The position numbers and the translations under genes were made by a program. Shown in pieces: positions 24,352 through 53,889 of a stretch of DNA of 64,000 bases. The DNA comes from Vibrio chagasii (lineage in GTDB: Bacteria > Pseudomonadota > Gammaproteobacteria > Enterobacterales > Vibrionaceae), in the NCBI GenBank assembly GCA_041879415.1, contig CP090851.1, positions 1,054,001-1,118,000 of the forward strand, written 5' to 3'. The first letter of the stretch is position 1, and the number at the start of each line of letters is the position of its first letter. A model generated the notes under the pieces. The model was not told where the DNA came from. It made no database searches and saw nothing but the letters and a program-made list of their open reading frames with translations.

Positions 24352-24361
24352 AATGTTGTCC

Positions 24362-24862: not shown

Positions 24863-25072
24863 ATCCAACTCCATTTGGGGTGTGTAGAAAGTAAAAAAGC
24901 CGTATATGAGCGAGTTAATGAGTAATGTCTGGGATCACTAACCGAAGGTAAGCGAATTACAGTGCTGCTTTAGCCACTTGCGTGTACAACGAATCGGCAA
25001 GCTTTGGTAATACGTTACGAATAAACAAAGGAGTTTTAGTAAACTCATGTACGGCGAAACAAGGAAAGAGTA

Positions 25073-25092
25073 AGAGGGCACTATGACCCTCT
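25073..25092 (-). promoter_or_regulatory. Intercistronic hairpin between tctC and tctB
   Basis: AGAGGG / CCCTCT with an 8-base loop, 12 bases past the tctC stop, with no U-run. Such hairpins commonly stabilise the upstream message so that the binding protein is made in excess of the permease. This role is inferred from position. Confidence 0.4.
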
Positions 25093-25103
25093 ATCGTTAT
25101 TGG

Positions 25104-29300: not shown

Positions 29301-30026
29301 GTAGTAGCGATTTTTTGCTTTATCAATGATGTCTAAAAGTTGCTGCCCTTTGTCATCTAAGATCTGTTCTTGCAGCTCCAAAACTAACTGTGAAGCTTTT
29401 TGCATCTCAAATTTGACCAAGGAATAGGTCTTTAGGTTTCCGTTGAGCAGGTACTCTTTCTCAAGGTTTTGTATGTTGACCGCAAGAGTGGTTAGTTGAC
29501 TGGTTTTTAGGGCGACGTTGGTTAGGTCTTCGCTGGTTAATCTTAGTGCCCTTATATTCTGACTGTTTTGATTAATGGCTTGATTATGTAGATCCCTCAT
29601 ATCCCGTAGCAGCTCTGTTGCGGCGTTTGAACGCTCATCCATGAGTGTTCTAGTCGATTGGCTCATCTTGATGATGTCGACATACTCTTTGAATTGCATC
29701 AGGTACTTAGTGAGCAAATCAACAGGTAGCGATGCAGCATATTCGCTTTCGTATTCGTTAGCGAGTTGGATGGTGTGTTCTGCTTCTTGATTAAACTCTT
29801 CAATGACTTGTTCGTTGTAATCGTTGCTGAAGGAGAGCTCGTAAACACGCAGCTTATCAAGGGAAGTCAATAATCTGGTGCTAGAGGCGTACTCTTCAAC
29901 GCCAATTAATCGATTATTGAGGTTGATCCAGGCGCCAACAGCAACGGAAAACACAACGATGGCAGCAACCAGAAAGGAGACTAAGATTATTTTTGAGTCA
30001 GTAGCAAATTTAGAAACAGTATTCAT
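26370..30026 (-). CDS. Hybrid sensor histidine kinase (HisKA-HATPase-REC-REC-Hpt)
   Basis: The 1218-residue inner-membrane protein has helices at about 12-34 and 432-452 around a ~400-residue, largely helical periplasmic sensor region of TorS-like character. The transmitter has H489 in [13 protein letters not shown], then [15 protein letters not shown] and [10 protein letters not shown]. Two receiver domains follow with D780 ([14 protein letters not shown]) and D932 ([17 protein letters not shown]), and a C-terminal Hpt with H1078 ([15 protein letters not shown]). It can run a full phosphorelay. The preceding gene, 32 bases upstream, is an HD-GYP response regulator and is the obvious output, linking the signal to cyclic-di-GMP breakdown. 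The ligand is unknown. Confidence 0.93.
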
Positions 30027-30051
30027 AAAGTACCTGTGTTCATAAAGTACC
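30022..30051 (-). repeat. 13-bp duplication covering the hybrid kinase start, with a leader mini-frame
   Basis: TTCATAAAGTACC occurs twice, 17 bases apart. On the minus strand each copy reads GGTACTTTATGAA, so ribosome site and ATG are duplicated. The upstream ATG (30043) opens a six-codon frame whose TGA overlaps the real ATG at 30026 in an ATGA arrangement, suggesting translational coupling. Confidence 0.65.
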
Positions 30052-30058
30052 AGCGTAC

Positions 30059-31102
30059 TTAGTGTTCTAGTTCATCAGTAAAAGAGTCTTTGATGGTGAG
30101 CATCTCGTCGAGCTTACTAATGAAGATCGGCACCAAGTTAGGGTCAAAGTGCTGGCCAGCTTCTTCTTGTATCAGGCCTATCGCTTTTTCGATTGGCCAA
30201 GCTTGCTTGTATGGTCGTTCGCTGGTGAGCGCATCAAATACGTCGGCAATAGCGACAATACGTGCGCTTAGTGGGATATCTTCGCCTGAAAGTTTGTGAG
30301 GGTAGCCACTGCCATCCCATTTTTCATGGTGGTACAGAGCAATTTCTTGAGCGAGTATCAGTAGCTTAGAGTCGTTGTCTCCAATGATATCGCCGCCAAT
30401 GGTGACATGGGTTTGCATGATTGCCCATTCGTCCGCATCGAGCTTTCCGGGTTTCCCAAGAATAGAGTCGGGGATACCAATTTTACCTATGTCATGCATT
30501 GGTGCAGCTTGGAACAGAAGTTCGACCCACTCATCACTAACATCGAGCTGCTGAGCAAGAATTTTGGAGTAGTAGCTCATTCGTACAACGTGCATACCAG
30601 TTTCATTATCTTTGTATTCCGCGGCGCGCCCCAGTTTTCGAATAATCTCGAGCCTACTCATGGCTAACGCTTCTGTTCTCTGCCTCACTTTTTGAGAAAG
30701 CGCTAAGTTTTGGTCATAGAGAGAAATATGAGTCACCACACGAGCTTTCACAATAGGTGGACTGACTGGCTTAGTGATGTAATCAACGGCGCCAAGTTCA
30801 AACCCTTTTTGTTCATCGACGACATCGGTTTTCGCAGTAACAAAGATCACGGGGATATCCGCAGTGACCGGGTCACTTTTAAGTCGGCGGCATACCTCAT
30901 AGCCATCCATTTCCGGCATCATAATATCAAGAAGAATAAGGTGTGGTTTCGGTGAAGAAGAGGCGATTTTTAAAGCTTTTGCACCGGACGTAGCAGCTTT
31001 GATTTTAAATTCGTCGTTTAGGATCCCTGAGAGGGTATGGATATTATCTGGGATATCGTCGACTACCAGAACAATAGGCTTGTCTGTCGTAATTTGATTC
31101 AT
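30059..31102 (-). CDS. Response regulator with HD-GYP output (RpfG-like)
   Basis: The 347-residue protein has a receiver domain (residues 8-125, phospho-acceptor D59 in [15 protein letters not shown], lysine in YITKPVSP), a helical linker and a complete HD-GYP domain ([13 protein letters not shown] at 203-215, [11 protein letters not shown] at 258-268). Proteins with this architecture, such as RpfG, hydrolyse cyclic-di-GMP when phosphorylated. It is first in an operon with the hybrid kinase. The T6SS region begins about 300 bases to the right, read in the other direction at its first gene. Confidence 0.94.
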
Positions 31103-32737: not shown

Positions 32738-33508
32738 TTAGCGGTGTTGTTTGAGAAGGACCTGATAACGACTCGGTAAGCTTCCTATATTCGAAAGTTC
32801 TTCCAATATCACCGCGAGTGCGAACCAATCGTCCAATTTGCTCGTGATAGTGTGCTCTCTAGAATATCGAGGGGTGTAGCTGTTAAAGCGAAGCTTTTCT
32901 CTATCCGTTCCCATTTGGGTGACAGACCCAAAGTCGATAAGATGCGCCCGTCCTTGTTCACTCATGATTATATTGGATGGCTTAAGATCACCATGAACGA
33001 ATCCAAGTCTATGGATTTGGTTTATAGCGGTTTCTAGTGAGCTAATAAATTGAAAAGACGAACACTCAGGTAGGTTTGAGTCGTTTAGTATCTCCCGCAG
33101 TGTTTGACCACTAATGTAGGAAAGTACTAGAAAGTCTTGTTGGTAGTTAGAGAAGTAGTCGAGATATTTTGGGTAAGTGCCTTGTGTATCCAAATCTGTG
33201 TTGGAATAGAGAAACTCTGCCTCTTGTTTTAGATAGTGGCGGTGTTTTAGTTCATGAGCATATTTGATAGTGACCAATCCCCAGCTACGATGCTGAGCTA
33301 TAAATACTCGCGAGCTTAAGCGAGCAAGGTCGGTATAACCATGTTTTTGGATCGCACGTCTGAGCTGTTCATCAGTTGAACTCGTCTGGTTAGAAGAGGC
33401 ATCATCTTCGATGGGTGCAGCTCGCCTTGATGGGGAGGGCGAGCTATTAGACGGAGCGCTATTAAATTCCACTTGGCAGAGAAAACCCTGAGAAGAACCC
33501 TGGGACAA
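32738..33508 (-). CDS. T6SS-linked Ser/Thr protein kinase (PpkA-like, kinase domain only)
   Basis: The frame encodes a Hanks-type kinase: the lysine of VTIKYA (K82), catalytic loop VHGDLKPSNIIM (D174, K176) and LIDFGS (D192) are present; the canonical HRD is HGD. There is no membrane helix and no C-terminal sensor domain, so it is shorter than PpkA of Pseudomonas. In T6SS loci such kinases phosphorylate the FHA protein to switch on assembly, and an FHA gene is present here. No matching phosphatase gene is in the window. The start overlaps the end of tssM: TTG at 33508 or GTG at 33472 are possible, and the first ~50 residues are low-complexity Ser/Pro. Confidence 0.85.
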   Translation of the reverse strand: MSQGSSQGFLCQVEFNSAPSNSSPSPSRRAAPIEDDASSNQTSSTDEQLRRAIQKHGYTDLARLSSRVFIAQHRSWGLVTIKYAHELKHRHYLKQEAEFLYSNTDLDTQGTYPKYLDYFSNYQQDFLVLSYISGQTLREILNDSNLPECSSFQFISSLETAINQIHRLGFVHGDLKPSNIIMSEQGRAHLIDFGSVTQMGTDREKLRFNSYTPRYSREHTITSKLDDWFALAVILEELSNIGSLPSRYQVLLKQHR

Positions 33509-36856: not shown

Positions 36857-38053
36857 TCAGTTAGACTCTTCCTTGTTTAAGTCATGCGCAGAAGTGCGAA
36901 CGATAATGGCATTTATTTGGTCGTTTTCGACATACCATGCTTTGGTTTTTCTCGCTTCTTCTGAGGTGCTCGCTCTCAATATCACTCGGTAGTATTTCTT
37001 GTACGGCGAGATGATTGGTTCATAAGCTGATGGCGACAGATTGTTGATAAAAGCTTGGGCATTTTTCTTACTAGAGAACGTCGCTAATTGAACCAACCAA
37101 TTCGCCGTGCTTGGCGCTAAGCTGGTAACCTGTGATGTCTCAACCGCTTGAGCTTTACTTGCATGACGAGGTGGTGATTCAAGATCGTTGTCTTGGCTAA
37201 TAAATACGATGTCTTTAACTTCACCAGATAAGACGTAGCGCTCACTAAAGTTAGGTAAAAAGGTGAAATCGCGAGCTCGCTGGGTATGAGTCTTGGTGTA
37301 CCAAAACTCAGTGAGCCCAATACTGGTTGCTATCAGACAAAAGAAAAACAAACTGGTAATGAAGTATCGCTTACGTCGAGTCGGCTTTCTTACTTCTGGG
37401 AGCTTAACTTTAGTGCGGCAGTGAACACCGCTAACAGTGCGATACTGGCTAATGGTCTGTTCTAATTGATGGACAAATGCCTTTAGTTGCTCAGCACCAC
37501 CTTCCCGATATTGTCCTTTGAACCCGATATTGATAAAGAGATAAACGATCTCAAGAAGATCAATTAATTTGTGAGGCTGTCTCGCGGCTTTTTCGGCAAC
37601 AGAGAAGAACAGCTCACCACCGTTACGCATACCAAACAGTTCACTCAGTAGGGTTTTATTTTCCCAGCCTCGTTTCTCTCCCCACTCGGTATAAATGATG
37701 AACTCATCAATCACCACGGCATACAAAAAACAGAGCTTATCGATAACTGCAACAGGGTAGGTTAACTCGGTCGCTTGAGCTTTGATGTCGTTAATGCCCT
37801 GAATAAGTTGCTCACGGAAAACGGTTAAGTCATCTGGTTCAGATAAGGTTGAGATCTTGAGTGTCTTGGTTAGTAAATCACTGCTGATATTGATCAGTTG
37901 ATTCTCTGCTTTATCAAAGTGACGCAGAAACTCTTCTTGGGCGCTGCTGGAGTGCACCGCGACTAATTTAGAGAAAGCCTGGTCAGCCCCTGTATTAGCA
38001 GAGCCTTTTGACGCTTTATCGATGACCAGTGTTTCTTCGTCTAAATAATCCAT
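36857..38053 (-). CDS. tssL: T6SS protein TssL (DotU) with C-terminal SPOR domain
   Basis: The 398-residue protein has an N-terminal cytoplasmic DotU domain (about 40-205, with IDKLCFLYAVVIDEFIIYTEWG and WENKTLLSELFG), one membrane helix (229-248) and a periplasmic extension. Residues ~318-388 form a SPOR domain (NWLVQLATFSSKKNAQAFI and YKKYYRVILRASTSEEA), which binds denuded peptidoglycan. Extended TssL proteins more often carry OmpA-like domains; this one would anchor the complex at SPOR-type glycan sites, such as division septa. The gene lies between tssK (5 bases) and tssM (2 bases). Confidence 0.93.
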   Translation of the reverse strand: MDYLDEETLVIDKASKGSANTGADQAFSKLVAVHSSSAQEEFLRHFDKAENQLINISSDLLTKTLKISTLSEPDDLTVFREQLIQGINDIKAQATELTYPVAVIDKLCFLYAVVIDEFIIYTEWGEKRGWENKTLLSELFGMRNGGELFFSVAEKAARQPHKLIDLLEIVYLFINIGFKGQYREGGAEQLKAFVHQLEQTISQYRTVSGVHCRTKVKLPEVRKPTRRKRYFITSLFFFCLIATSIGLTEFWYTKTHTQRARDFTFLPNFSERYVLSGEVKDIVFISQDNDLESPPRHASKAQAVETSQVTSLAPSTANWLVQLATFSSKKNAQAFINNLSPSAYEPIISPYKKYYRVILRASTSEEARKTKAWYVENDQINAIIVRTSAHDLNKEESN

Positions 38054-39431: not shown

Positions 39432-39920
39432 CTAAAAGATTTGCCACCAGCTAGAGTCTGGCTGTATCACGGCTAGCTCTGCTTTCTTCCCTGTAATCGT
39501 TAACTCTAAAGTTTGCTCTGGATCGGTGGGCATCATGAGGACGGCTTTGGTCGTGCCATCTTGGTAATCTGCAAATTCAACCAGTGCTGCAATGTATTGC
39601 GTGTTCTTATTGATATCTAACGTCACCGTTTGTTCAGAGTTTGGCAAGACGATCGGTAACACCTGTTTTGAAACCAAGTTTGCCGCGAGCAACTGCAAGT
39701 CATTATTGTATAAATCAATAAATGGCAGTTGCTTGAACAGCTGTTGATCCGTTAGTTGGTAAAGCCTAACCACAACTGGGTTGGCTTGATCGTCGTTGTA
39801 CTGATTGATTGTCGCGTCTGCTTTTACCGTAAGCGAGTATTGAGTCACGACCGGAGCAGGGTCCGATGACGAGCATGCTGCGACGAGTAAACAAAGGGAT
39901 AAGAGTATGAGCCTTTTCAT
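39432..39920 (-). CDS. tssJ: T6SS outer-membrane lipoprotein TssJ
   Basis: The 162-residue precursor has a lipoprotein signal (LILLSLCLLVAAC, lipid on C16, followed by SSSDP) and a transthyretin-like beta sandwich: YSLTVKADATINQY, PVVVRLYQLTDQQLF and LELTITGKKAELAVI. TssJ anchors the TssM periplasmic domain to the outer membrane. Ser at +2 is consistent with outer-membrane sorting. Its ATG overlaps the stop of the FHA gene by 4 bases, indicating coupling. Confidence 0.94.
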   Translation of the reverse strand: MKRLILLSLCLLVAACSSSDPAPVVTQYSLTVKADATINQYNDDQANPVVVRLYQLTDQQLFKQLPFIDLYNNDLQLLAANLVSKQVLPIVLPNSEQTVTLDINKNTQYIAALVEFADYQDGTTKAVLMMPTDPEQTLELTITGKKAELAVIQPDSSWWQIF

Positions 39921-40864
39921 TCTCTCTCCTCACTTTGCTTTTGCATGTTCTCCATAAACAGTGCTTTGAACTGACGTCTGAAATCTCCGTTGTCTTGGCG
40001 GTGTTGGAAGTGTTTACGATAGATCTTCCAATACTTTTTATCTTTATTGCTAAAAATGCCGCTACTTACGTATTCGCTAAATTGGCTCTCAAGCTGCGTT
40101 GGTGCAAATTCGTTTAAGAACTGATCAACCGTTTGCTCTAACGCATCAAATAAGGCTTTTTGCTGCAGTTGTGGATTTTGTAAATACTGCTGATTTTTCT
40201 CGGTTAGGGTAATGAGCTTGTCGATTGATTCTTCAATTCGAGTGTTGTTCTCGATATTGACTGGCAAATACTCTAACTCTGCAGAGGATAGGGTGCTGGT
40301 GTCACCATGAGCGATTTCGTCCACTTCAATGTTGGGAACAACTTTTTCATCGTCCAGATCCTCAAATGGGTCAGAAGAGAACGGGTCATCACTCAACACA
40401 TTTTTTGAAGAGAAGTTTGATGTTTTTTTTGTGGATGTAACTTCTGGTGCCTCATCGAGAAAGTCAGTGTCGCTGTCATCCAGTTTTAAATTGAAAGGTT
40501 CTATGAAAGTGTCATCCTGTTTGCTGTTCGCTGACTCAACCTTGGGGGTACTTAATAGGCTAACCAGCAGTGTGTAACCACCTAGTTTGATGATGTCGCC
40601 ATCAGTAATAACGTACTCTTTCTCTTTTGCCAGTGATTTGTCGTTTAACGAAACGCCGTTGTTACTGATGTCCTTAATCACGTAACCGCGATCCGTTGGG
40701 TACAGCTGACAGTGAGTACGAGAAATCCATTTTGTTTGGTCTGGAAGCGCAATATCACATGACGGAGAACGACCTAAGCTTCCGCCACTTTCTGGCAGAT
40801 ACGACACTCTAGAGGAAACAACCTCTTCAGCAGGTACAGAAATCATGTGGACACTGATGGACAA
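39917..40864 (-). CDS. T6SS FHA-domain protein (TagH/Fha)
   Basis: The 315-residue protein begins at TTG 40864, chosen because AAGGAG lies at the right distance and overlaps the stop of the preceding gene. An FHA domain occupies about residues 20-105 (GGSLGRSPSCDIALPD, ISRTHCQLY, ISNNGVSLND), with the Gly-Arg, Ser and Asn residues that bind phosphothreonine. The middle is acidic and low complexity; the C-terminus is a helical TagH-type domain (PTQLESQFSEYVSSGIFSNK). It is the probable substrate or reader of the Ser/Thr kinase downstream in the same operon. Confidence 0.92.
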   Translation of the reverse strand: MSISVHMISVPAEEVVSSRVSYLPESGGSLGRSPSCDIALPDQTKWISRTHCQLYPTDRGYVIKDISNNGVSLNDKSLAKEKEYVITDGDIIKLGGYTLLVSLLSTPKVESANSKQDDTFIEPFNLKLDDSDTDFLDEAPEVTSTKKTSNFSSKNVLSDDPFSSDPFEDLDDEKVVPNIEVDEIAHGDTSTLSSAELEYLPVNIENNTRIEESIDKLITLTEKNQQYLQNPQLQQKALFDALEQTVDQFLNEFAPTQLESQFSEYVSSGIFSNKDKKYWKIYRKHFQHRQDNGDFRRQFKALFMENMQKQSEERE

Positions 40865-40867
40865 TGG

Positions 40868-41596
40868 CTACTCCTTGCACTTGGATATGGCTGTGTTAAA
40901 ACTGCCTAGGAAACCTGAGTAGGTTTTAAGAAATCGATTCGAAAAGTAGACCCCCATATCCTTGGTATCTAAGTTCGTCGAATTGAAGTAATCGAGTGGT
41001 AATGAGGCATGTTCTAGCTCCCGTTTGAATACCAACTCATCTTCTAAAACAACATCAATTTCCCTTTGTTTTAAAAGTCTTAGTAATACTTTAGCATCTC
41101 GTGGCTGCTTAACGACGTTAAATCCGTTACGTTTTAGCCAAAACCATTTGTTTGAGCCAAATTTGGCAGAAAAGTTGAGGTTTAACTTTGACAATTCATC
41201 AACCTTCGGTTCCACTCCCGGACCAAAATACCAATTCAAAGTCTGTTTAGCGATTGGAGCGGAAAGCGTCGCATACTCATCACGTTCTGATGTTTGTGTC
41301 GCAACGAAAAATCCATGCTGGCTGCCACTATGAACACGCAGTTGTGCATCAGACCAAGTAGTCATTGTTAGCTGGTAGGGTTGTCCCATCTTGCCCAAGG
41401 CACACTTCACTTTGTCTAAAGCAATGCCTTGCATCGTAGCGTTTTCATAACTTTGGTAGGGCGGCCAATCTTGAGTGGTTAGTAAAAGCCTTGATGGCCC
41501 AATTTTAAGTTGAGCGAAACCGCTCATCGACCAAGATGCCGAGAGGATAAGAGTGGCTAACGATAATCTGATGGTAGAGGCTCTAGTTAACATCAT
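40868..41596 (-). CDS. Periplasmic solute-binding-like protein (SBP_bac_3 type) inside the T6SS operon
   Basis: The 242-residue protein has a signal peptide (LSLATLILSASWSMSGFA) and a small type II binding fold: LLLTTQDWPPYQSYENATMQG opens as in amino-acid binding proteins and sensor domains, GFFVATQTSERDEYA follows, and LKQREIDVVLEDELVF closes the second lobe. There is no adjacent ABC permease or ATPase. Its start overlaps the preceding gene by 14 bases and its stop overlaps the ribosome site of the FHA gene, so it is locked into T6SS expression. It probably senses a ligand for the neighbouring membrane sensor; this is inferred. Confidence 0.85.
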   Translation of the reverse strand: MMLTRASTIRLSLATLILSASWSMSGFAQLKIGPSRLLLTTQDWPPYQSYENATMQGIALDKVKCALGKMGQPYQLTMTTWSDAQLRVHSGSQHGFFVATQTSERDEYATLSAPIAKQTLNWYFGPGVEPKVDELSKLNLNFSAKFGSNKWFWLKRNGFNVVKQPRDAKVLLRLLKQREIDVVLEDELVFKRELEHASLPLDYFNSTNLDTKDMGVYFSNRFLKTYSGFLGSFNTAISKCKE

Positions 41597-42581
41597 TAGA
41601 GTTTCCTATCACTTCAGAGATTTTCAATATAGACACTGGCGGGTAATAGTCGAGCTTCTGTGCGGCTTCGATATTCACAATATAAGAATATTGGCTGAGT
41701 GACTCTATTGGTATGTCTGAAGCTTTTTGAGTTCCTTTCAAAATGTTCTTCGCTTTGTATCCCGCAAACTGACCAACGTTGTAGTAACGACTTACGATAC
41801 CAAACAAGGCTTGGTGCTTTCTTATCGGACTTTCAGTGGCCGAGAATGTTGGGATACCCTTCGAATGTAACCCTGATACGACTTCCCCTCCTTGGGTGAT
41901 GATGTATGAATCAGGTGGTAAGTAAGCCATATCGACACCATCACGTTTCATATTATTTATCGTGAGGTTAATTAAGTCGCTGTTTGACTTACTTTTATCA
42001 ATGCTTAATGGGTACAACATAACACGCTTATTATAAATTTCCGATAACTCCATCATTTTATTTGCGGTGATAACCGAATTATTTTCATCAGCGTTATAGA
42101 TAACCCCAAGGCTAGAAATGTTATTTAGTTTATCAATGGCTTTGAACTGTATTTCATGAGGGACAATATGTGAGACACCCGTAAAATTTCTATCTTTCGA
42201 AGATAAATCAGAAATTAAATTAGAACCGACGGGGTCGGTAACAATACTAAACACGACTGGTGTCGTATTGTTTGTTCTAAAATCACTAGGTTTGGAGTAA
42301 GTACCTAATAAATTCAGTGTGATAGTGGTACCAAATGAATAGATAAGATCTGCGTTTTTATATTCTAAATCTTTGATGTGTTGCTTGAGTGCTGCCTTAT
42401 CTCGGTTGGCATCTAATATCGTGAATCGCACATCCACATGCTGAGATAAATAGTCCATGAAGCCTTGCTCAGCATCAGTTACTCCCCGCCATAACAAAAG
42501 AATGACGTGTTTTTCAGCGCTATTAGCAAACGCTGCAGGAGTCATCAAAATAAAGCTTAGAATGAACACGATCATTTTCAT
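41583..42581 (-). CDS. Periplasmic binding protein of the ABC_sub_bind (PF04392-like) family in the T6SS operon
   Basis: The 332-residue protein has a signal peptide (MKMIVFILSFILMTPAAFAN) and a two-lobed type I binding fold with the family pattern DLIYSFGTTITLNLL, PVVFSIVTDPVGSNLI, FTGVSHIVPHEIQ and SLGVIYNADENNS. Characterised relatives bind aromatic amino acids or similar ligands, and others act as sensor inputs. It overlaps the sensor-MFS gene by 4 bases (ATGA) and the SBP_bac_3-type gene by 14. No cognate permease or ATPase exists in the window, which argues for a sensing role. Confidence 0.85.
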   Translation of the reverse strand: MKMIVFILSFILMTPAAFANSAEKHVILLLWRGVTDAEQGFMDYLSQHVDVRFTILDANRDKAALKQHIKDLEYKNADLIYSFGTTITLNLLGTYSKPSDFRTNNTTPVVFSIVTDPVGSNLISDLSSKDRNFTGVSHIVPHEIQFKAIDKLNNISSLGVIYNADENNSVITANKMMELSEIYNKRVMLYPLSIDKSKSNSDLINLTINNMKRDGVDMAYLPPDSYIITQGGEVVSGLHSKGIPTFSATESPIRKHQALFGIVSRYYNVGQFAGYKAKNILKGTQKASDIPIESLSQYSYIVNIEAAQKLDYYPPVSILKISEVIGNSNDVN

Positions 42582-45145
42582 GATTGAACTCCTAGCTTAT
42601 GTTTGTCAGCTTTAAGAAAGATTGAGAAGAACAGAATCAAGCTTAATGAGCTTACGAGTAGGGAAGCACCAAATATAATAATGGTTTGGTCGTAACCGAA
42701 AATACTTAAGCTTACGCCGGCTAACATTGGCCCTGCGATATTACCGATACGCTCTGTAAGCCTAAAGATACCGATGATTTTACCTTTCTCGATGCCTTGT
42801 CCAGAAAGTAGGTCGATGACTAAAGGTATTTGAGGAGAAACACAGATGCCGTGTGCAATACCAATGATAATAACGATCAGAAGTAGCCCCAGTGTACCTT
42901 GGAAGAAATAGAAGTTGAGTAGGGCGAGCGCAGACAGTAGCCCACCAATGAAGATAAACGCCATTTTGTTTTTGAGCTTGTCGACCAAAATAGCACTCAA
43001 CGGTGAGATTAGAATGATCGCGAGGCCATAAGCCATTATTACGCGACCGGATACAGAGCTACTTTCCCCAAGAAACTGCAGGTAGACAGGACAGATGTAA
43101 TAAAGGAAGCCTGTAAGGACTATCTTTGCGGGGATAGCACTGAAGACAGTAATTAACGCGAAGTACTTGTTACTCAACAGCAGTTTGAAGTCTTGCAACT
43201 TGACGGGTTTACTTGAATTGCTGCTATTGGACTTTTCAAAGAATACATAGACCAACAGCACGCTGAGCGTGGCTAACAATCCAGCCAGCATAAAGGTTTC
43301 TGAATAGCCGAGTTTTTCCGCAAGGATGCCACCAATCGCAGCGCCGCATAGGGATCCGGAGAAGAACGACGACAGGAAGGTCGCCATGCCTTTTGTCCGG
43401 TTCGAGTCATTGGTGGTATCAGAGACATAACCCTGAGCTGAAATAAACACGATGCCGTAACCAACCGCGGTAAAGGCACGAGCGATCAACAACAATTCAA
43501 GTGATTGAATGAAAGCGGTAGCCACTAAGCCGATACACGTAATGAGTCCACCCGTGATTAACGAATGCCTTCTACCTACTTTGTCTGACCAATAGCCTGC
43601 GAATGGCAGTGAGATTGCCCAGCACAGCATGAATAGAGAAATAGGTAAACTGGTCACAAGGTTTTCAGGTATCCAGCCTGTGGTATTTTCTAATGAAGAG
43701 ACAAACGTTGGAAAAAATGCCAGCGAAGAGGCTTCAGAGAACACTAATAAAAATAGCGGCAAGCGAATGAATCGAAAATCTTGTTTATCAATATCTTGAG
43801 ATGGTTGGTTGGGATTCAGTTTGGTGATCGCTTTATTGGTGAGATTGAGTAGTTTACCAATCTCATCTCGAGTCGAGATCTTAGCAAGGTGATTCACAAT
43901 GTCTCTGTTGACCAGCATAAAGACACGCTTTACCTGATTCCAAGGTGAGATGATCATGAAGTTACACATGAACAGAATGATTTCGGCCACCACAAGGCAA
44001 GAGGCAACCAACACGGTGATCATATCCATGACGCTCTCTTTGAGCAGGTTGATGATCAAATTGTTGTCAGTCGTAACATTCAACTGAATCGTATGGCTGT
44101 TATTGAGCGTGAACGTAGACTCGCGAATAGAAGGGTGCTCTACATAAACCTCAGGATAGCGATACGTTGTTCCAGGTTGCCCTTGAAAGTTAATCGATAG
44201 AATTTCGCTGTGGTGATCGACGAAGAACGCAAATTCTTCTTCTAAACCAAATAGCCTGTCGTCAGGTACTCCCTTATCAAGTAGTCCCTTTATCATTTGA
44301 TTTAGTGAATCACCAATTAGGTTCGATTTCTGTTCAAGCTTGATTTCGTATATTTGAGAAAACTTATCGAGAGATTGGTATGAAACCCCTAAGTTGGCGA
44401 TGATAGTAAGTAAGATTGCGAGGGAGATAATAAACACGGGAAAGTGTTTGTTTTTAAACTTCTCAAACTTGGATAACGAGTTCGGAGATTGAAGCGCTTT
44501 GTGAGCTTGTGTGATCGTTGGCAGCAACTTATCTGAACCGGGCTCAGACTCAAAGATGGCGGTTGCACTTTTTACTCTACTAACAATACCTTCCAATAAG
44601 TATTTCAACGCGACAAAGGCAACCAAACATGAAAGCAGAATCCAAATTGCAGAATAGAGAAACTGAAGTTTAAGTAAGAAGGTCTTTTGCTGTTCTAATA
44701 GGGTGGTGGAGTAGTAGAGTTTTACTTGCCCCTCGACTAAGCCAAAAGAGTTGGTGATATCAAGTGATAGCTGACGATCACTTTGCTCAGTTCCTTCTCC
44801 GGTACCAAACAGTTGTTCTCCAGAGGTAGAGACAACCACCAAAGCGTTAATACCATCAACAATTTGGAGGCGGCGATCCAGCATATTCTGAATATTGGAG
44901 ATGGCAGATAGAGGTAAGCCTAAGCTGATCGCTTGGTTAATATCGTTATGAGTCTCCTCTAAGACTATCTCATAGATAGAATCAGACGTTTCAGTCAGTC
45001 TTTTTTCAAAATTGAAATAGTTCAGTGTAGCGTTTAATGCAATGGAAAACAGCAAGACCGCCATGATGGCAAACATCAACTTAACCCGCAGCGACAGGTT
45101 AAGTAACGATGCTTTGGTCAAGGTTTGGCTAGTCTTACTGCTCAT
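42578..45145 (-). CDS. Fusion of two membrane sensor units with an MFS transporter, in the T6SS operon
   Basis: The 855-residue protein starts with helix 22-42, a periplasmic domain (about 43-160) and helix 161-181; then helix 236-254, a second periplasmic domain (about 255-373), helix 374-396 and a HAMP-like segment (397-440, SPWNQVKRVFMLV and STRDEIGKLLNL). The rest (about 460-850) is a 12-helix MFS carrier with motif A (GYWSDKVGRRHSLI, 517-530). There is no kinase, GGDEF, EAL or methyl-accepting domain, so the apparent output is the transporter itself. It begins 10 bases after tssH and overlaps the binding-protein gene. I know no characterised protein with this arrangement; the architecture is read directly, the role is inferred. 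Confidence 0.85.
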   Translation of the reverse strand: MSSKTSQTLTKASLLNLSLRVKLMFAIMAVLLFSIALNATLNYFNFEKRLTETSDSIYEIVLEETHNDINQAISLGLPLSAISNIQNMLDRRLQIVDGINALVVVSTSGEQLFGTGEGTEQSDRQLSLDITNSFGLVEGQVKLYYSTTLLEQQKTFLLKLQFLYSAIWILLSCLVAFVALKYLLEGIVSRVKSATAIFESEPGSDKLLPTITQAHKALQSPNSLSKFEKFKNKHFPVFIISLAILLTIIANLGVSYQSLDKFSQIYEIKLEQKSNLIGDSLNQMIKGLLDKGVPDDRLFGLEEEFAFFVDHHSEILSINFQGQPGTTYRYPEVYVEHPSIRESTFTLNNSHTIQLNVTTDNNLIINLLKESVMDMITVLVASCLVVAEIILFMCNFMIISPWNQVKRVFMLVNRDIVNHLAKISTRDEIGKLLNLTNKAITKLNPNQPSQDIDKQDFRFIRLPLFLLVFSEASSLAFFPTFVSSLENTTGWIPENLVTSLPISLFMLCWAISLPFAGYWSDKVGRRHSLITGGLITCIGLVATAFIQSLELLLIARAFTAVGYGIVFISAQGYVSDTTNDSNRTKGMATFLSSFFSGSLCGAAIGGILAEKLGYSETFMLAGLLATLSVLLVYVFFEKSNSSNSSKPVKLQDFKLLLSNKYFALITVFSAIPAKIVLTGFLYYICPVYLQFLGESSSVSGRVIMAYGLAIILISPLSAILVDKLKNKMAFIFIGGLLSALALLNFYFFQGTLGLLLIVIIIGIAHGICVSPQIPLVIDLLSGQGIEKGKIIGIFRLTERIGNIAGPMLAGVSLSIFGYDQTIIIFGASLLVSSLSLILFFSIFLKADKHKLGVQS

Positions 45146-45155
45146 TAGCTAAGGC

Positions 45156-47768
45156 CTATTTAATCGTTAAATCGAAATCGGCGCTGTTGTTTGTCGCGCT
45201 GACCGATACATGAGTAATCGGTTCGCTGCGGCTTAAACGCCCGATACACTCTTCAGCCAACCTAGGCATCAGAGAGCGGTTAATGATTTGCTCGACAGCA
45301 CGGCCACCCGTTGTTGGGTCTGTATTACGATCCACGACAAACTGAATGAAGTCAGCATCCCATGTGAACGACGCTTGATATTGTTCTGCCAGCTTCTTCT
45401 TGATGCGATTAAGCGATATCTCGGTGATCTTCGCTAGTTCTTCATCATTAAGCGGGTAGTACGGGACAATGGTAGCTCGGCCTAAGAAAGCGGGCTTGAA
45501 GTACTGTTGCAAGTCGGGACGAATCGCTTCCAGTAGCTCGTCGTTGTCTATGCGGTCTGTAGTCTTAGCACAGACATCACAGATAGCTTGATCAGCGGCA
45601 TTAGAGGTCATGATGATAATGGTGTTTTTGAAATCAACCGTTCGGCCTTCGCTGTCTTTGATATGGCCTTTATCGAAGATTTGGTAAAACAGGTCATGTA
45701 CGCCAGGGTGCGCTTTTTCCATTTCATCTAACAGCAGTACTGAGTAAGGATTGCGTCGAATCGCTTCTGTTAACACACCACCTTCACCAAAGCCGACGTA
45801 ACCCGCTGGTGAGCCAAGCAACATAGAGATCTTATGCTCTTCTTTAAACTCAGTCATGTTGATTACAGTAAGGTCGTTGCTACCTCCGTACAGTTGCTCC
45901 GCGAGTGCCATGGCGGTTTCGGTTTTACCCACACCACTTGGGCCACACATTAAGAACACACCGATAGGTTTACGGTTATCGGTTAAACCCGCGCGGGATA
46001 TACGAATCGCTTTAGCAAGCTCATTCTTAGCAACATCTTGACCAATAACTCGGGTATTAAGCTCGTCTTCAAGGGTAAGCAGCTTAGCGATTTCATCACT
46101 CATCATGTTGCCAACCGGGATACCTGTCCAATTGGCAATCACTTGAGCGATGGTGTTGTCGTCAACCATCGCATAAACCAAAGGCTCTTCACCTTGTAGG
46201 TCTGCTAATTCGGTTCTCAGAGTATCAAGTTGTTTCTGTTTAGTGGCATCGACGGCATCTTGCTCCTGTTCTTCGGTTATCTCTTGTTGAACAGTCTTGA
46301 TTTGATCAACTAATTCAATCTCTTTCTCCCAGCGCGTGTAATACGCGGCAAGTGCCTGTTGGTTCTCTTCGATTGATTGTGTCAGCTCTTCGATTACTTC
46401 AGCGCTGTTTGAGAATAGGGCATCTTCTTTCTCTAGTGCTGCCTTCTCGTTTTCTTGATAACGAATGGTCTGTTCAAGTGTTTCCAGCACTTCTGGCTTA
46501 GCCCCTTGTGTTAAGGCAATTCGGGCGCTGGCGGTATCAAGAAGGCTGATCGCTTTGTCGGGTAACTGACGGCTTGGAAGGTAACGAATCGATAAGTTAA
46601 CAGCAGCTTCGATTGCCGATTCTGCGATAAATGCGCCGTGGTGAGCTTGCAGTGAAGCCGCTACGCCGCGAAGCATCTGCATTGCATCTTCTGCGTTGGG
46701 TTCTTCAATGGTGACGACTTGGAATCGACGTGTTAGTGCTGGATCTTTTTCAAAGTACTTCTTGTACTCGGCCCAGGTTGTCGCGGCAATGGTTTTGAAT
46801 TCACCACGAGCTAGTGCTGGTTTGAGAAGGTTAGCAGCATCGTTTTGTCCTGCTGCGCCGCCAGCACCAATAAGCGTGTGTGCTTCATCAATGAACACAA
46901 TGATTGGCACTTCAGAGCTTTTTACTTCGTTGATGACATCTTTTAGACGGTTCTCAAACTCACCCTTAACGCTAGCTCCCGCTTGAAGTAACCCAAGGTC
47001 AAGTGAGTGGATTTGTACCCCTTGCAATGCGCTTGGTACTTCATCTGCCGCGATTCTTAAAGCTAGACCTTCGACAACGGCCGTCTTACCTACGCCGGGT
47101 TCACCGACCATAATTGGGTTGTTCTGACGCTTACGACATAAGATATCAATCGCTTTTCTTACTTCAGCATTACGGCCTGAAATAGGGTCGATGTTTCCGT
47201 CGAGTGCTTGTTGCGTCAGGTTAACGGTGTATTTGCTTAATGCATCGTTACCCGCTGGAGTAGTATCAACAGAGCCGCTAGCTGAAGGAGAGGCTGTGTT
47301 GCGTGCAATCGGAGTTTTCTTGATCAAGCCTTGCAGAGACTCGAGTGACACGTTGCTTAGTGTTTCGAGTTGTAGGGTACTTACCCCTAAAACATTTTGC
47401 TGCATGAGTGCTTGGATTAGATGCAAGCTGACGATCTCTCCGTGACCGTAGTTAACCGATGCAATCATCCAAGCATCTTTGATTAACTCCGTGAGACCAT
47501 GACTCAATGTAGGCTGACCTTCATTCCCTTTCGCCAATATGGAAACTTTCTTCGTCAGTTCATTAACCAAGGCGTCTAACGAAAGCTTTTGCGATTCACA
47601 CAGAGCCATCAGCTTGGGATCTTTTTGCGAAATAAGCTGAAGAATCCAGTGTTCAGTCTCTATCGCGCCAACACCTTGATTCATTGCCGCACCCGCAGAC
47701 GCTTCTAGCGCTTGCTTGAGTTCGGGAGAAAGTTTTCCTACTAAGTTAGTGAGAGTTACTTGTGTCAT
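45156..47768 (-). CDS. tssH: T6SS AAA+ disassembly ATPase TssH (ClpV)
   Basis: The 870-residue ClpB-like ATPase has a ClpV-type N-terminal domain (to about 160), two AAA+ modules with Walker A GEPGVGKTAVVEG and GPSGVGKTETAMA, Walker B IVFIDEAHTLIG and SVLLLDEMEKAHP, and a middle coiled coil (about 405-530). It pulls apart contracted TssB/TssC sheaths for recycling. ATG 47768 is preferred over the in-frame TTG at 47774 because AAGGA lies 7 bases upstream. It follows tssG and precedes the sensory cassette. Confidence 0.96.
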   Translation of the reverse strand: MTQVTLTNLVGKLSPELKQALEASAGAAMNQGVGAIETEHWILQLISQKDPKLMALCESQKLSLDALVNELTKKVSILAKGNEGQPTLSHGLTELIKDAWMIASVNYGHGEIVSLHLIQALMQQNVLGVSTLQLETLSNVSLESLQGLIKKTPIARNTASPSASGSVDTTPAGNDALSKYTVNLTQQALDGNIDPISGRNAEVRKAIDILCRKRQNNPIMVGEPGVGKTAVVEGLALRIAADEVPSALQGVQIHSLDLGLLQAGASVKGEFENRLKDVINEVKSSEVPIIVFIDEAHTLIGAGGAAGQNDAANLLKPALARGEFKTIAATTWAEYKKYFEKDPALTRRFQVVTIEEPNAEDAMQMLRGVAASLQAHHGAFIAESAIEAAVNLSIRYLPSRQLPDKAISLLDTASARIALTQGAKPEVLETLEQTIRYQENEKAALEKEDALFSNSAEVIEELTQSIEENQQALAAYYTRWEKEIELVDQIKTVQQEITEEQEQDAVDATKQKQLDTLRTELADLQGEEPLVYAMVDDNTIAQVIANWTGIPVGNMMSDEIAKLLTLEDELNTRVIGQDVAKNELAKAIRISRAGLTDNRKPIGVFLMCGPSGVGKTETAMALAEQLYGGSNDLTVINMTEFKEEHKISMLLGSPAGYVGFGEGGVLTEAIRRNPYSVLLLDEMEKAHPGVHDLFYQIFDKGHIKDSEGRTVDFKNTIIIMTSNAADQAICDVCAKTTDRIDNDELLEAIRPDLQQYFKPAFLGRATIVPYYPLNDEELAKITEISLNRIKKKLAEQYQASFTWDADFIQFVVDRNTDPTTGGRAVEQIINRSLMPRLAEECIGRLSRSEPITHVSVSATNNSADFDLTIK

Positions 47769-47815
47769 AGTCAATTCCTTGTATCTCTATAATCTACATA
47801 TTCCGTATTTATGAA

Positions 47816-50564: not shown

Positions 50565-50979
50565 AGTTATCTTCTTCCAGAGAGGTCGTTAAGTCGCTTA
50601 ATGCGATTTTTGAATCAAAGATAAGGTCTTGTTCACCATGGCTGGTTTTTACTTTGGCGATGATGTTGAACGACAATGAGTTATCGCCTTCTTTTCGCTC
50701 GCCAAGCTCGACAGAAATGTTGTGTAAGCGTGGCTCAAAGCTTTTAATCCAATTTTCGATTCTTAGCGTGAGTTGTGTTTTTTCTAGTGTTGCACTGAGT
50801 AACTGAATATCTTCGATACCAAACTTCAAATTCGAACGGTTTACTTCAACTAATCGGTTGTCAATGTCAGTTAGCGAAGCCTCTGCCTCTAACAGTTTGG
50901 TGAGATGGAATTTGATGTCCTCTATCTCAGCATCTTGGTACGGTTTGGAATCGCTAACAAAGGTGGTCCAGAAACTCAT
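50557..50979 (-). CDS. tssE: T6SS baseplate protein TssE (gp25-like)
   Basis: The 140-residue protein has the gp25/LysM-like baseplate domain: SIHNI-type start is replaced by LVEVNRSNLKFGIEDIQLLS, followed by IENWIKSFEPRLHNISVEL, the conserved region carrying the Glu-Pro-Arg motif. TssE starts sheath polymerisation. Its start overlaps the upstream TssC-like gene by 1 base and its end overlaps tssF. Confidence 0.9.
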   Translation of the reverse strand: MSFWTTFVSDSKPYQDAEIEDIKFHLTKLLEAEASLTDIDNRLVEVNRSNLKFGIEDIQLLSATLEKTQLTLRIENWIKSFEPRLHNISVELGERKEGDNSLSFNIIAKVKTSHGEQDLIFDSKIALSDLTTSLEEDNYD

Positions 50980-52373
50980 TACGCCACCTCATTTAGGTCG
51001 GTAGTTAGCACCACTTCACCACTGAAATAGTCAAACTGGTATTGAGGCACAATGCGCAAAGTACAAGCGAAGCTGCCAGATTGAGAGCTCGACTCTGTGA
51101 CACTCACTTTGGCAAAGCTCAATGGGTATTTCGACAGAGTTTCTTCGTTAGCAAACGACACGTTGCTTGAGAATTTTTCTATCCAGTGCGTTAAGAACAG
51201 TTCACACTCCGTCGCGTTATTGAAGCTGCCGATCATCTCTCTTACTTGAACTTTTAAGTAATGCGCGATTCGGCAGGACATCAGTGTGGTTTGGATCTGA
51301 GTAAGGACTTTGTCGTTGTCACTTTGCCCACATTGCCAAATCGAATTGTTACCGTTGAAGTAGAATTTGTCAGTTAATGGGCTTTTAGCAAGTGGAATGA
51401 AGCCACTTTGCGCATAGAAGTTAGATAGTTGCCCGAATAAACTAATGTCGGTGACTGGCTTTTGTAGGTAACTCTCGAAATAGTGGTTCGCAGGCAGATT
51501 GATAACCGCGCCTTGAAGCTTATCGTTCCAGCGAGATTTTAAAAAACCGAACCAATTCACGCGGTGGAACTCTCGCATAACAGTGGTAGCGAGCACCATG
51601 TTGGCTAACCCCCACGCACCTTTGCCTTGTTCGTTATAAATAAACCCGGCTCTTCGATTTTTATAGGCTTCTCTGATTCTAACTTGAGGTAGCGCCATAC
51701 CAATGAAGCGAGAACTCGGTTTAGCACGGAGTTCTTGCCATGCGGTGTAATCGGGGCCTGAAAGAATCTTATTGATACGTTCGATATCTGAAAGCCAGTC
51801 CGCGCCGCTCTCACCAAAAAAAGTAGGCACTGGAGAAAACAGCATTGGACAGAGTGTCGCTTCCCCTAATTTTCCAAGTAGCTCCAAGGTAAACAAGTCG
51901 TCGTATTCAGCATCAAAATCGATATCCATAGAAATAGGGTGGCTAAAAGCTATACAACCAAACGGATGTCCCCCTAAAGTATTCAGCTCGTTGTTGCCTA
52001 TCTTGTTGTACAGGTCACTGGATTTAGTTGAGTATGCTTGGTTAACGTCGCTGGATATCTCTTCCCAGTTCATATCAAGAAGCTTTACATGTGCTCTTTG
52101 ATAGCTAACGGGTAGGGAGGCGAGTTGTTGCAGGCTAAGCCAATTACGTTCTAGCTTTTGAAACTCCGAATCATGGATAACTTCATCGAGTTGTAAACTG
52201 AGTGTGCTATCGATTTTCGATATCAGTGTTGATATCAATGAGATTAGTGAGGATTTAGAGCGCAAGCAGTGTTGGTCTAGCTCAGATAGCAGAGATAAAG
52301 CCTCTTTTAAAAAGGAATTATCTGTGTCATCTAATTGGTTGAATTTGTTTTGCCATTCTGTATTTAACTTCAT
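50979..52373 (-). CDS. Second, divergent TssC-like sheath protein
   Basis: From ATG 52373 the product is 464 residues (an in-frame start at 52430 would overlap tssC). It aligns by eye with TssC upstream: KLERNWLSLQQL versus KLEGSWRGLQKL, NTLGGHPFGCIAF versus GTAGGEPYGTFIG, GMALPQVRIREAY versus TLTLPRTLARLPY, and MSCRIAHYLKVQVREMIGS versus MASSRIAHYLKVMGRDKLG. It is clearly a paralogue but divergent, with a shorter N-terminal region, which carries the sheath linker strand in TssC. It could be a cap, baseplate-proximal or assembly subunit. A GGCCGGA hairpin lies between the two genes. Confidence 0.9.
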   Translation of the reverse strand: MKLNTEWQNKFNQLDDTDNSFLKEALSLLSELDQHCLRSKSSLISLISTLISKIDSTLSLQLDEVIHDSEFQKLERNWLSLQQLASLPVSYQRAHVKLLDMNWEEISSDVNQAYSTKSSDLYNKIGNNELNTLGGHPFGCIAFSHPISMDIDFDAEYDDLFTLELLGKLGEATLCPMLFSPVPTFFGESGADWLSDIERINKILSGPDYTAWQELRAKPSSRFIGMALPQVRIREAYKNRRAGFIYNEQGKGAWGLANMVLATTVMREFHRVNWFGFLKSRWNDKLQGAVINLPANHYFESYLQKPVTDISLFGQLSNFYAQSGFIPLAKSPLTDKFYFNGNNSIWQCGQSDNDKVLTQIQTTLMSCRIAHYLKVQVREMIGSFNNATECELFLTHWIEKFSSNVSFANEETLSKYPLSFAKVSVTESSSQSGSFACTLRIVPQYQFDYFSGEVVLTTDLNEVA

Positions 52374-52381
52374 ACAAAATT

Positions 52382-52404
52382 TTGGCCGGATTGCTCCGGC
52401 CAAA
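52382..52404 (-). promoter_or_regulatory. Hairpin between tssC and the tssC-like gene
   Basis: TGGCCGGA / TCCGGCCA with loop of four, 7 bases after the tssC stop and just before the next ATG. It could partly terminate or stabilise the abundant tssC message and hide the weak start of the paralogue, lowering its output relative to sheath subunits. Confidence 0.6.
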
Positions 52405-52410
52405 TCCCTA

Positions 52411-53889
52411 TTAGCCAGGAATCTTAGCAACCATTCGAACTGAGGTGGTCAGTTCTTCAAGTTGTAGCCAAGGTCTTAGGTGAGCGACTGCAGAGTAGGC
52501 ACCTGGCTTACCAGGTTGCTCAACCACTTCGATGCGAGATTCACAAAGAGGGGTTTTTGCACGTTGCTCGTTACCAATTGCACCAGCATTGGTGTACTGG
52601 TCGATCCATAGTTGCAGCTCGCGCTTAATGTCTGGAGCTTCAAGGTTCGAACCTAGCTTGTCTCGGCCCATTACTTTCAGATAGTGCGCGATACGGCTAC
52701 TTGCCATGATATAAGGTAGGCGAGCAGAGATCGCAGCGTTTGCTGTTGCGTCTGGGTCAGTGAAGGTTTTAGGCTTCTGTGTAGTTTGACCGCCAATGAA
52801 CACGGCGTAGTTTGAACTCTTATAGTGAACTAAAGGTAGGAAACCAAGATCAGACAGCTCTTTTTCACGCTCATCCGTTAGGTTTACTTCAGTTGGACAC
52901 TGTTGCAGTAGGTCACCAGCTTCAGACTTGTACGTTAGGTTTGGTAGGTTTTCTACCTTACCACCGTTATCAAGACCACGAATCGAAGTACACCAACCAG
53001 AAGCTGTGTAAGCTTGAGTCATTTTAAGACCAAGATCATATGCTGCATTTGACCAAACTAGCTGATCATTGCTCTTAGGTTTAGGGTTGCCATCCATATC
53101 TGTATCGAGCTCTTCGTAAGCAAACACATCGGTACTCAAGCCTTTTCCACCATAAGGTAGACGAGCAAGAGTTCGTGGAAGTGTGAGTGTTACGTAACGC
53201 GCATCATCGCTCTCACGGAATGAGTTCCATGCTGCGTAAGCTGGGGAGTCGAAGCCCGCTGCAACAGGTTTACCTTCAGAGAAGGTTTGGAAATCATTAA
53301 ACTCGAACATTTCTGCATTTGCAGCAGCAACGAATGGAGCGTGACAGGCAGCAGCAACTTCGCCCATGTAACGAAGTAGTGCAACATCTTCATCTTTTGC
53401 GCTGAACTCGTAGTCACCAATGAAGGTTCCATAAGGTTCACCGCCGGCTGTACCAAATTCACCTTGGTAAACGGCATTGAATAGTGGGCTACGGTCGATT
53501 GCAGGTGCATCTTCAAATTGGTCAAGCAGCTCTTCTTGGGTGAAATCGACCATTTTGATTTTCAGATCACGGCCAAGTTCGCTTTCTTTAACCAGTTTTT
53601 GTAGACCACGCCAAGAGCCTTCTAGTTTTTGCAGATCCTTTTGCTGCATCACTTCAGACAGTTGCTTGGATAGCTTTTTATCGATCTCTGAAATCGCGTT
53701 TTCGATGGTTTTTGTAACGTTTTTATCCCACGTCACTGTGCCTGAAAGCGCCTGCTCTGTTAGAACAGAAAACAGCTCTTTGGTGGTGTCTGCGGGAGTT
53801 TGAGTGGTAGCTTCAATCGCACGGTCTAGAAAGCTCAGTGAGCCTTCAGCAGCTTCCGGTTGCGCTTGATTTTCAGTTTCAGTACTCAT
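52411..53889 (-). CDS. tssC: T6SS contractile sheath large subunit TssC (VipB)
   Basis: The 492-residue protein has the typical FLDRAIEATTQTPADTTKEL N-terminus, KLEGSWRGLQKLVKESELG, FGTAGGEPYGTFIGDYEF and a C-terminus ending VRMVAKIPG. It polymerises with TssB into the contractile tail sheath. Its ATG overlaps the tssB stop by one base (TAATG), a coupling that ensures equimolar synthesis. A hairpin follows the stop. Confidence 0.97.
   Translation of the reverse strand: MSTETENQAQPEAAEGSLSFLDRAIEATTQTPADTTKELFSVLTEQALSGTVTWDKNVTKTIENAISEIDKKLSKQLSEVMQQKDLQKLEGSWRGLQKLVKESELGRDLKIKMVDFTQEELLDQFEDAPAIDRSPLFNAVYQGEFGTAGGEPYGTFIGDYEFSAKDEDVALLRYMGEVAAACHAPFVAAANAEMFEFNDFQTFSEGKPVAAGFDSPAYAAWNSFRESDDARYVTLTLPRTLARLPYGGKGLSTDVFAYEELDTDMDGNPKPKSNDQLVWSNAAYDLGLKMTQAYTASGWCTSIRGLDNGGKVENLPNLTYKSEAGDLLQQCPTEVNLTDEREKELSDLGFLPLVHYKSSNYAVFIGGQTTQKPKTFTDPDATANAAISARLPYIMASSRIAHYLKVMGRDKLGSNLEAPDIKRELQLWIDQYTNAGAIGNEQRAKTPLCESRIEVVEQPGKPGAYSAVAHLRPWLQLEELTTSVRMVAKIPG

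Follow-up and report, generated by a model that had tools for sequence, protein, structure and literature searches.

A type VI secretion system (T6SS) operon of Vibrio chagasii, held in a 64,000-nucleotide stretch of contig CP090851.1 (the window; the genome comprises 5.2 Mb in 3 contigs), carries three genes between tssH and fha, all on the minus strand by open reading frame (ORF) calling. The first encodes a protein with sensor units fused to a major facilitator superfamily (MFS) carrier (hereafter sensor-MFS), the second a PF04392 binding protein, and the third an SBP_bac_3-like protein. The first two genes were linked to each other, absent together, and present in varied secretion loci, and therefore form a portable two-gene module. 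We tentatively propose, with somewhat less than even confidence, that this module is a ligand-gated carrier-receptor that likely sets the activity of its host injection machine. The SBP_bac_3-like gene is separate from the module and belongs to the constant gene set of this T6SS subtype. An earlier note on the window had presented the three genes as one T6SS-linked unit. This held for the sensor-MFS/PF04392 pair, which was found with T6SS in 43/45 Vibrio genomes and outside Vibrio in or near four T6SS clusters and in one type III secretion system (T3SS) locus, but not for the trio. The three genes are:

42578..45145, minus strand: sensor-MFS protein, 855 aa, module gene 1 (ORF, MFS_1, AlphaFold2 model, family searches)
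41583..42581, minus strand: PF04392/TrpX-like periplasmic binding protein, 332 aa, module gene 2 (Pfam, NCBIfam, structures 3lft and 3lkv, adjacency)
40868..41596, minus strand: SBP_bac_3-like periplasmic protein, 242 aa, a T6SS-subtype gene and not part of the module (locus counts, model and fold)

Distribution of the three genes in Vibrio

At a threshold of E ≤ 1e-60, sensor-MFS was found in 45/196 Vibrio genomes; an earlier one-protein sample had found it in 9/61, all from one genus. The closest protein to the window copy was from Vibrio chagasii (99% identity). We read all 45 loci (44 fetched plus the window). The PF04392 gene lay 3' of sensor-MFS on the same strand in every one, usually with a 4-base overlap, and the module was inside T6SS clusters in 43. 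Type A loci (34/45) had the window's order of tssH, sensor-MFS, PF04392, SBP_bac_3, and fha. Type B loci (9/45) had a separate first-sensor gene, sensor-MFS, and PF04392 upstream of vgrG. The remaining two genomes (G176 and G131) carried the pair without T6SS genes in the stretch and without TssK in the genome. Five named loci outside the 45 (L009-L012 and L014) showed the same picture, with L010 ending within sensor-MFS.

Relatives of fha occurred in 59/196 Vibrio genomes, including T6SS loci without sensor-MFS. Six such loci (G030, G181, G124, G134, G003, and G080; fha 51-61% identical) consisted of tssH, SBP_bac_3, and fha, with both sensor-MFS and PF04392 missing from all six. The best PF04392 relatives anywhere in these genomes were only 29-31% identical, and the module's own PF04392 copy is therefore gone from them. 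Vibrio genomes whose sole fha match was 29-31% identical (other T6SSs) were left unread. In a five-protein T6SS tree (quick method, LG+G4), the six loci fell in three places, nested within type A. These three lineages are best read as joint losses, with replacement by transfer as the alternative. A damaged locus in G202 (L081) was not counted among the six: its fha is 97% identical to that of the window and broken, and only the end of PF04392 (residues 234-332) is left, with unrelated ORFs beyond.

The SBP_bac_3 gene behaved differently. It lay between tssH and fha in all 42 fetched loci with all three genes visible (33 type A, 6 module-less, and 3 type B). In the 3/3 type B clusters checked, it remained at tssH-fha while the module was at the opposite cluster end upstream of vgrG. 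Since SBP_bac_3 is kept at this position whether or not sensor-MFS and PF04392 are there, it is a constant part of this T6SS subtype, and the pair is separable from it as a unit. The reading of all three genes as one sensory cassette drew on the 4- and 14-base overlaps in the window, and their order was conserved in all 34 type A loci. Yet SBP_bac_3 occurred without the other two in six type A-like loci, and apart from the module in the type B clusters. We rejected the trio as one unit on this gene content, which leaves the single-cassette explanation largely refuted and scarcely credible.

The 242-aa SBP_bac_3-like protein itself fits the family by fold, as the earlier note had suggested. Its Pfam match alone is weak (E 3.8e-5, 23.9 bits, under the curated cut-off of 26.4), and a sequence comparison with solved structures gave no match. 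The AlphaFold2 model (pLDDT 90.5) resembles amino-acid binding proteins, with Foldseek E values of 3e-14 for ArgBP and 7e-14 for the periplasmic binding protein domain of RmcA. SBP_bac_3 proteins have what we take to be a ligand-contacting Arg and Asp motif; candidate positions in this family were R105 (36/40 relatives) and D186 (29/40). C65 and C240 were present in 40/40 aligned relatives. No paralogue was found elsewhere in the genome (E ≤ 1e-5).

The module outside Vibrio and its probable repeated recruitment

Outside Vibrio, 23 genomes had a match over both sensor and MFS parts, and all were fetched. They came from three samples: 5 non-Vibrio genomes among 398, 17 of 24 matches in 337 (two shared with the first), and 3 new in 369. 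PF04392 was on the same strand in the same gene run in 21/23, preceding sensor-MFS in G455 and G605; it was divergent nearby in G856, and G657 reached a contig end. Seven alphaproteobacterial genomes with matches over the MFS part only were dropped from the counts, as was G1169 (MFS part only, contig end). Three of the seven were fetched (L099-L101). Their proteins have 813-830 aa and match the family over the MFS part only. None had a PF04392 gene directly beside the match; L099 and L100 had weak PF04392-like matches (E 1e-6 to 1e-7) a few kb away. One of the three (G613) adjoins a T6SS.

Secretion loci. Five of these genomes carried the module with an injection machine, and the loci differed. 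G372 had a type B T6SS cluster. The order in G844 was first sensor, sensor-MFS, PF04392, SpoIIE phosphatase, tssH, hcp, vgrG, DUF6931, tssB, tssC, kinase, fha, and tssK. In G1014 the module precedes a porin-like gene and two vgrG copies, after which come tssB, tssC, and tssK from a distantly related type of T6SS (34% identity between its tssB and that of the window). In G634 it was ~11 kb past the vgrG end of the T6SS cluster. G455 had the module with GNAT and SpoIIE phosphatase genes following T3SS genes of the sctQ/R/T/U type, in a system that also had SseC, HrpJ/TyeA, and FHIPEP proteins. TssK was present in 7/23 genomes: near the module in four, far from it on the same contig in G643, and on other contigs in G705 and G605. 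Place can be compared in five of these genomes, and in four of them the module was either inside the T6SS cluster or no more than ~11 kb away. The probability of this by chance is 8e-7 to 3e-5 if chance nearness is 2-5%, which is our own estimate.

Other neighbors. The earlier note had named common occurrence of the trio outside T6SS loci with an unrelated partner as evidence against its reading. This was found in part, with the pair away from any T6SS seen and beside other partners in 2/45 Vibrio genomes, on Azospirillum plasmids, and in several Alphaproteobacteria. Twelve plasmid records matched and four were opened (H1, H8, H9, and H10). Among the opened records, two Azospirillum plasmids (of 11 matched) and one type B Vibrio record carried the pair, and H10 had an MFS-only match with other neighbors. 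The module was beside GNAT(-like) and ATP-grasp genes on the Azospirillum plasmids (L013 and L016) and in G833 and G743, and the Azospirillum gene set looks like a small-molecule pathway. G856 had D-Ala-D-Ala-ligase-like genes beside the module and G820 had GNAT and alanine racemase. A Cache-HAMP adenylate/guanylate cyclase was beside it in G1225 and G833. SpoIIE phosphatases adjoined or were within a few kb of the module in six genomes (G844, G705, G847, G696, G455, and G820), which is circumstantially compatible with a phosphorylation output. Because of the GNAT, ATP-grasp, ligase, racemase, or cyclase neighbors and the TrpX-like binding protein, an amino-acid-type ligand is suggested.

Some of this evidence also suits a different explanation, in which the module is a binding-protein-assisted or -regulated MFS transporter that exports or imports an amino-acid-like compound. 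Its co-production with the T6SS would then reflect the importance of the compound at that moment, with no regulation of the machine. Completeness and conservation of the DHA1-fold carrier part speak for this, as do the GNAT, ATP-grasp, D-Ala-D-Ala-ligase-like, and alanine racemase neighbors, which were found where no secretion system was in view. However, no counted member lacked the sensor units, the neighbors also include SpoIIE phosphatases and Cache cyclases, and association with injection machines occurred repeatedly. We regard such a transporter as possible, if on balance unlikely.

Repeated association was also evident in the sensor-MFS tree, where association with T6SS requires four changes, all four of them imposed by strongly supported branches. 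Holding types A and B together was rejected by the approximately unbiased test (p 3.6e-4; adding one row gave 2.5e-13), with the two groups named after the tree was seen and with long branches present. With that proviso, we rejected a single insertion as the source of types A and B.

Protein architecture, selection, and operon context

Sensor-MFS. The AlphaFold2 model of the 855-aa protein (pLDDT 83.8, pTM 0.80) predicts two units of transmembrane helix, beta sheet, and transmembrane helix, followed by a 12-helix carrier. Its parts are:

44681..45028, minus strand: first periplasmic sensor unit, ~residues 40-155 (model; separate gene in type B and most non-Vibrio members)
44036..44383, minus strand: second periplasmic sensor unit, ~residues 255-370, Cache-like (WalK profile match; Cache in some relatives; model)
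43796..44059, minus strand: fourth transmembrane helix, in which the acids D374 and E388 are conserved, followed by a HAMP-like linker, ~residues 363-450 (conservation; hydropathy; HAMP in 4/57 relatives)
42593..43789, minus strand: 12-helix MFS carrier, DHA1 type, residues 453-851

The second unit had a profile match to the WalK extracellular domain (4ywz, E 4.6e-5). The window protein had no Pfam HAMP or Cache match; among 57 relatives scanned by Pfam, HAMP was found in 4, sCache_3_2 in 5, and dCache_1 in 2. The architecture previously proposed from the window, two sensor units and a HAMP-like segment joined to a 12-helix MFS, agrees with the model for the units and carrier but has no Pfam HAMP or Cache match behind it in the window protein. 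D374 was D or E in 82/82 aligned rows and E388 was conserved in 80/82. Family searches returned 400 proteins at E ≤ 1e-60, of which 120 were listed.

The earlier note had also asked whether the sensor and MFS halves are separate genes in relatives. In 9/9 type B loci and in 18/23 non-Vibrio genomes (in the latter mostly with a 4-base overlap), the first sensor has a gene of its own, but the second remains fused to the MFS throughout the counted members, whose selection required a match to sensor and MFS alike. Since the second fusion was kept across these members, we rejected a frameshift artefact as its source. Two Vibrio copies are broken, with sensor-MFS split into two open frames in L055 (G011) and L067 (G083).

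The carrier part matched MFS_1 over residues 465-780 (E 2e-51) and its modeled fold is nearest to DHA1-type carriers. The structure-search rows took in the MFS part only and thus have no bearing on the sensor fold. The carrier appears complete and of DHA1 fold, and proton-coupled transport of a small molecule, as in this family, would be compatible with its conservation. DHA1 folds as in NorA, MdfA, and SotB would also suit self-protection efflux, with sensors that detect small-molecule damage or a compound from a host or competitor, and an exporter that opens during T6SS use. We consider this very unlikely, given that a drug efflux system would not be expected to pair with a TrpX-like binding protein and that the module was found beside amino-acid-modifying enzymes.

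PF04392 protein. The ABC_sub_bind (PF04392) match was well above its cut-off (E 7e-28, 98.2 bits vs 25.9), in agreement with the identity first proposed for it, and structure matches were 3lft and 3lkv. The TrpX equivalog NF041285 scored 109.6 bits, below the required 390, and by these profiles the protein is related to TrpX and is not TrpX itself. In agreement with the earlier note, Pfam found no ABC permease, ATPase, kinase, or cyclase domain in the three proteins. ABC permeases and ATPases were also missing from the 28 ORFs of at least 150 aa scanned between 20808 and 63089 (13 ORFs below 20500 were outside the scan). Remains of an ABC importer were rejected, as the MFS is the constant partner of the PF04392 gene. 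No TRAP DctM or TctA subunit was beside the PF04392 protein, where the adjoining membrane part is the MFS.

Selection. All three genes were under purifying selection. The ratios of nonsynonymous to synonymous substitution (dN/dS) were 0.017-0.065 against L028 and L030, comparisons in which dS had reached 0.6-2.0. In the comparisons with L032 and L035, sensor-MFS was saturated in dS, and the PF04392 and SBP_bac_3-like genes had dN/dS of 0.041-0.071. These values bear on the idea that the pair is cargo that entered secretion loci as a passenger without a functional link. Dispensability in three lineages and the presence of the pair elsewhere are what a passenger would show, but the module was intact in 33/34 type A loci, mostly with overlapping genes, dN/dS was 0.017-0.071, and several separate associations with secretion systems were found. 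A passenger therefore seems improbable to us.

Operon. The window's three genes and their T6SS neighbors are tightly packed, and the coordinates, strand, overlaps, and gaps in the earlier note were exact by ORF calling. Overlaps are 4 bases (sensor-MFS/PF04392-like) and 14 bases (PF04392-like/SBP_bac_3-like), and spacing to the T6SS genes is 10 bases on the tssH side (45156) and 3 bases on the fha side (40864). On the minus strand the operon comprises vgrG, DUF6931, tssA, hcp, tssB, two tssC-like genes, tssF, tssG, and tssH (tssE was not checked), and the three genes are followed by fha, tssJ, tssK, tssL, tssM, and a small Ser/Thr kinase. A scan found 5 promoter-like sites vs 14.2 in shuffles and 7 terminator-like sites vs 7.8, weak evidence that gives no sign of a separate transcription unit. 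The T6SS genes on either side of the three, and a candidate partner, are:

45156..47774, minus strand: TssH (ClpV) (TIGR03345, 1150 bits)
39917..40864, minus strand: Fha/TagH (FHA and T6SS_FHA_C)
32738..33508, minus strand: small Ser/Thr kinase at the T6SS operon end, a candidate downstream partner (Pkinase E 2e-17)

The window held several other features. Tandem TssC/VipB-like sheath genes (50979-53889) also occurred in tandem in the type A relatives read. TssL (36857-38053) has a C-terminal SPOR domain. A hybrid histidine kinase and HD-GYP response regulator (26370-31102) flank the T6SS, and relatives of the regulator adjoin several type B loci. A TctABC transporter set (22831-26075) is beside the hybrid kinase. 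A 1057-aa SBP_bac_3 and HD-GYP protein (59916-63089) is divergent from vgrG, with homologues at the T6SS kinase end in module-less genomes L075-L078.

Predicted function and relation to known systems

In the proposed carrier-receptor, an amino-acid-like ligand would be captured by the TrpX-like binding protein, which may dock on the paired Cache-like sensors by analogy to LuxP on LuxQ. The HAMP-like linker and transmembrane helix with the almost invariant E388 could then pass this state to the DHA1-type MFS carrier as the output. Likely readers in the T6SS would be Fha and the Ser/Thr kinase of the same operon, and in some Alphaproteobacteria the SpoIIE phosphatase beside the module may have this role. 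In this scheme we infer the ligand, docking, direction of transport, and output, as well as the link to Fha and the kinase.

Several observations weigh against the module setting the activity of an injection machine. It is dispensable, with three T6SS lineages lacking it. The sensor-MFS protein has no cytoplasmic output domain: no kinase, cyclase, phosphatase, or chemotaxis output was found, and in the window protein only MFS families follow the sensors. In G643 the module was far from the genome's T6SS. In G176, G131, Azospirillum, G833, G743, and others, no secretion genes accompanied the pair over the sequence read, an assignment that rests on limited and sometimes short contigs. The literature search found no expression or phenotype data on the module.

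A broader interpretation would rank the module alongside the TRAP and TTT transporters as a third class of secondary carrier that depends on a binding protein. The ligand would be delivered or reported via Cache/HAMP to the MFS, and T6SS and T3SS would repeatedly have adopted the whole as an environmental input. We consider this general form doubtful.

No description of the pair as a unit was found in open-licence PubMed Central (PMC) papers; the earlier note had proposed the trio as a candidate undescribed system. Locus tags in a published T6SS account point to three genes for T6SS2 and to two for T6SS3; by inference, the three T6SS2 genes would correspond to the window's trio. A Vibrio fluvialis paper reports no homologue in V. 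furnissii for V. splendidus VS_1324 and VS_1325. From their position by clpB (VS_1326) and V. splendidus locus L009, these two genes are very likely the module. Among the matches listed, V. fluvialis MFS P0149 was nearly identical to type B copy L065. Passages of PMC9545535, PMC9765294, PMC11371242, and PMC13249269 and the reference list of PMC8276074 contained nothing on the module. Both forms have thus been seen before, but in the parts of the literature covered they are not recognized as one module.

To our knowledge, the triggers of T6SS firing are known for few systems. A conserved portable module taken up by differing T6SS loci and one T3SS locus is a candidate shared input, and a carrier under the control of a binding protein and Cache domains is a layout without a description in the literature searched. 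For annotation, an "MFS transporter" and an "ABC substrate-binding protein" that lie inside a T6SS cluster or on its border may together make up a single unit. The SBP_bac_3 gene between tssH and fha should be treated apart from it, as a constant component of the T6SS that merits a name of its own.

Parts of the predicted carrier-receptor have counterparts in known systems. The T6SS threonine phosphorylation pathway TagQRST-PpkA-PppA-Fha likewise has membrane and periplasmic sensing genes within a T6SS with Fha and a Ser/Thr kinase, and G844 is similar in having a SpoIIE (PP2C-type) phosphatase next to the module, within a T6SS that also encodes a kinase and Fha. TagST is ABC/FtsX-like and TagQ and TagR are other proteins; we know of no TagQRST component with a Cache-MFS protein or PF04392 protein. 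In LuxP-LuxQ and other pairs of binding protein and sensor, a periplasmic binding protein of type I works with a membrane sensor whose periplasmic part has PAS/Cache units, but LuxQ has a kinase at its end, where sensor-MFS has a 12-helix carrier. TRAP and TTT transporters combine a periplasmic binding protein with a secondary carrier, though their membrane subunits are of other families, while here an MFS with sensors takes that place. UhpC, like similar MFS receptors, is an MFS protein that serves as a receptor, but UhpC is without periplasmic Cache units or a binding protein and has the kinase UhpB as its partner. NorA, SotB, and VMAT share the fold of residues 453-851 at 15-19% identity over the MFS part only; the sensor domains and binding protein are additional here.

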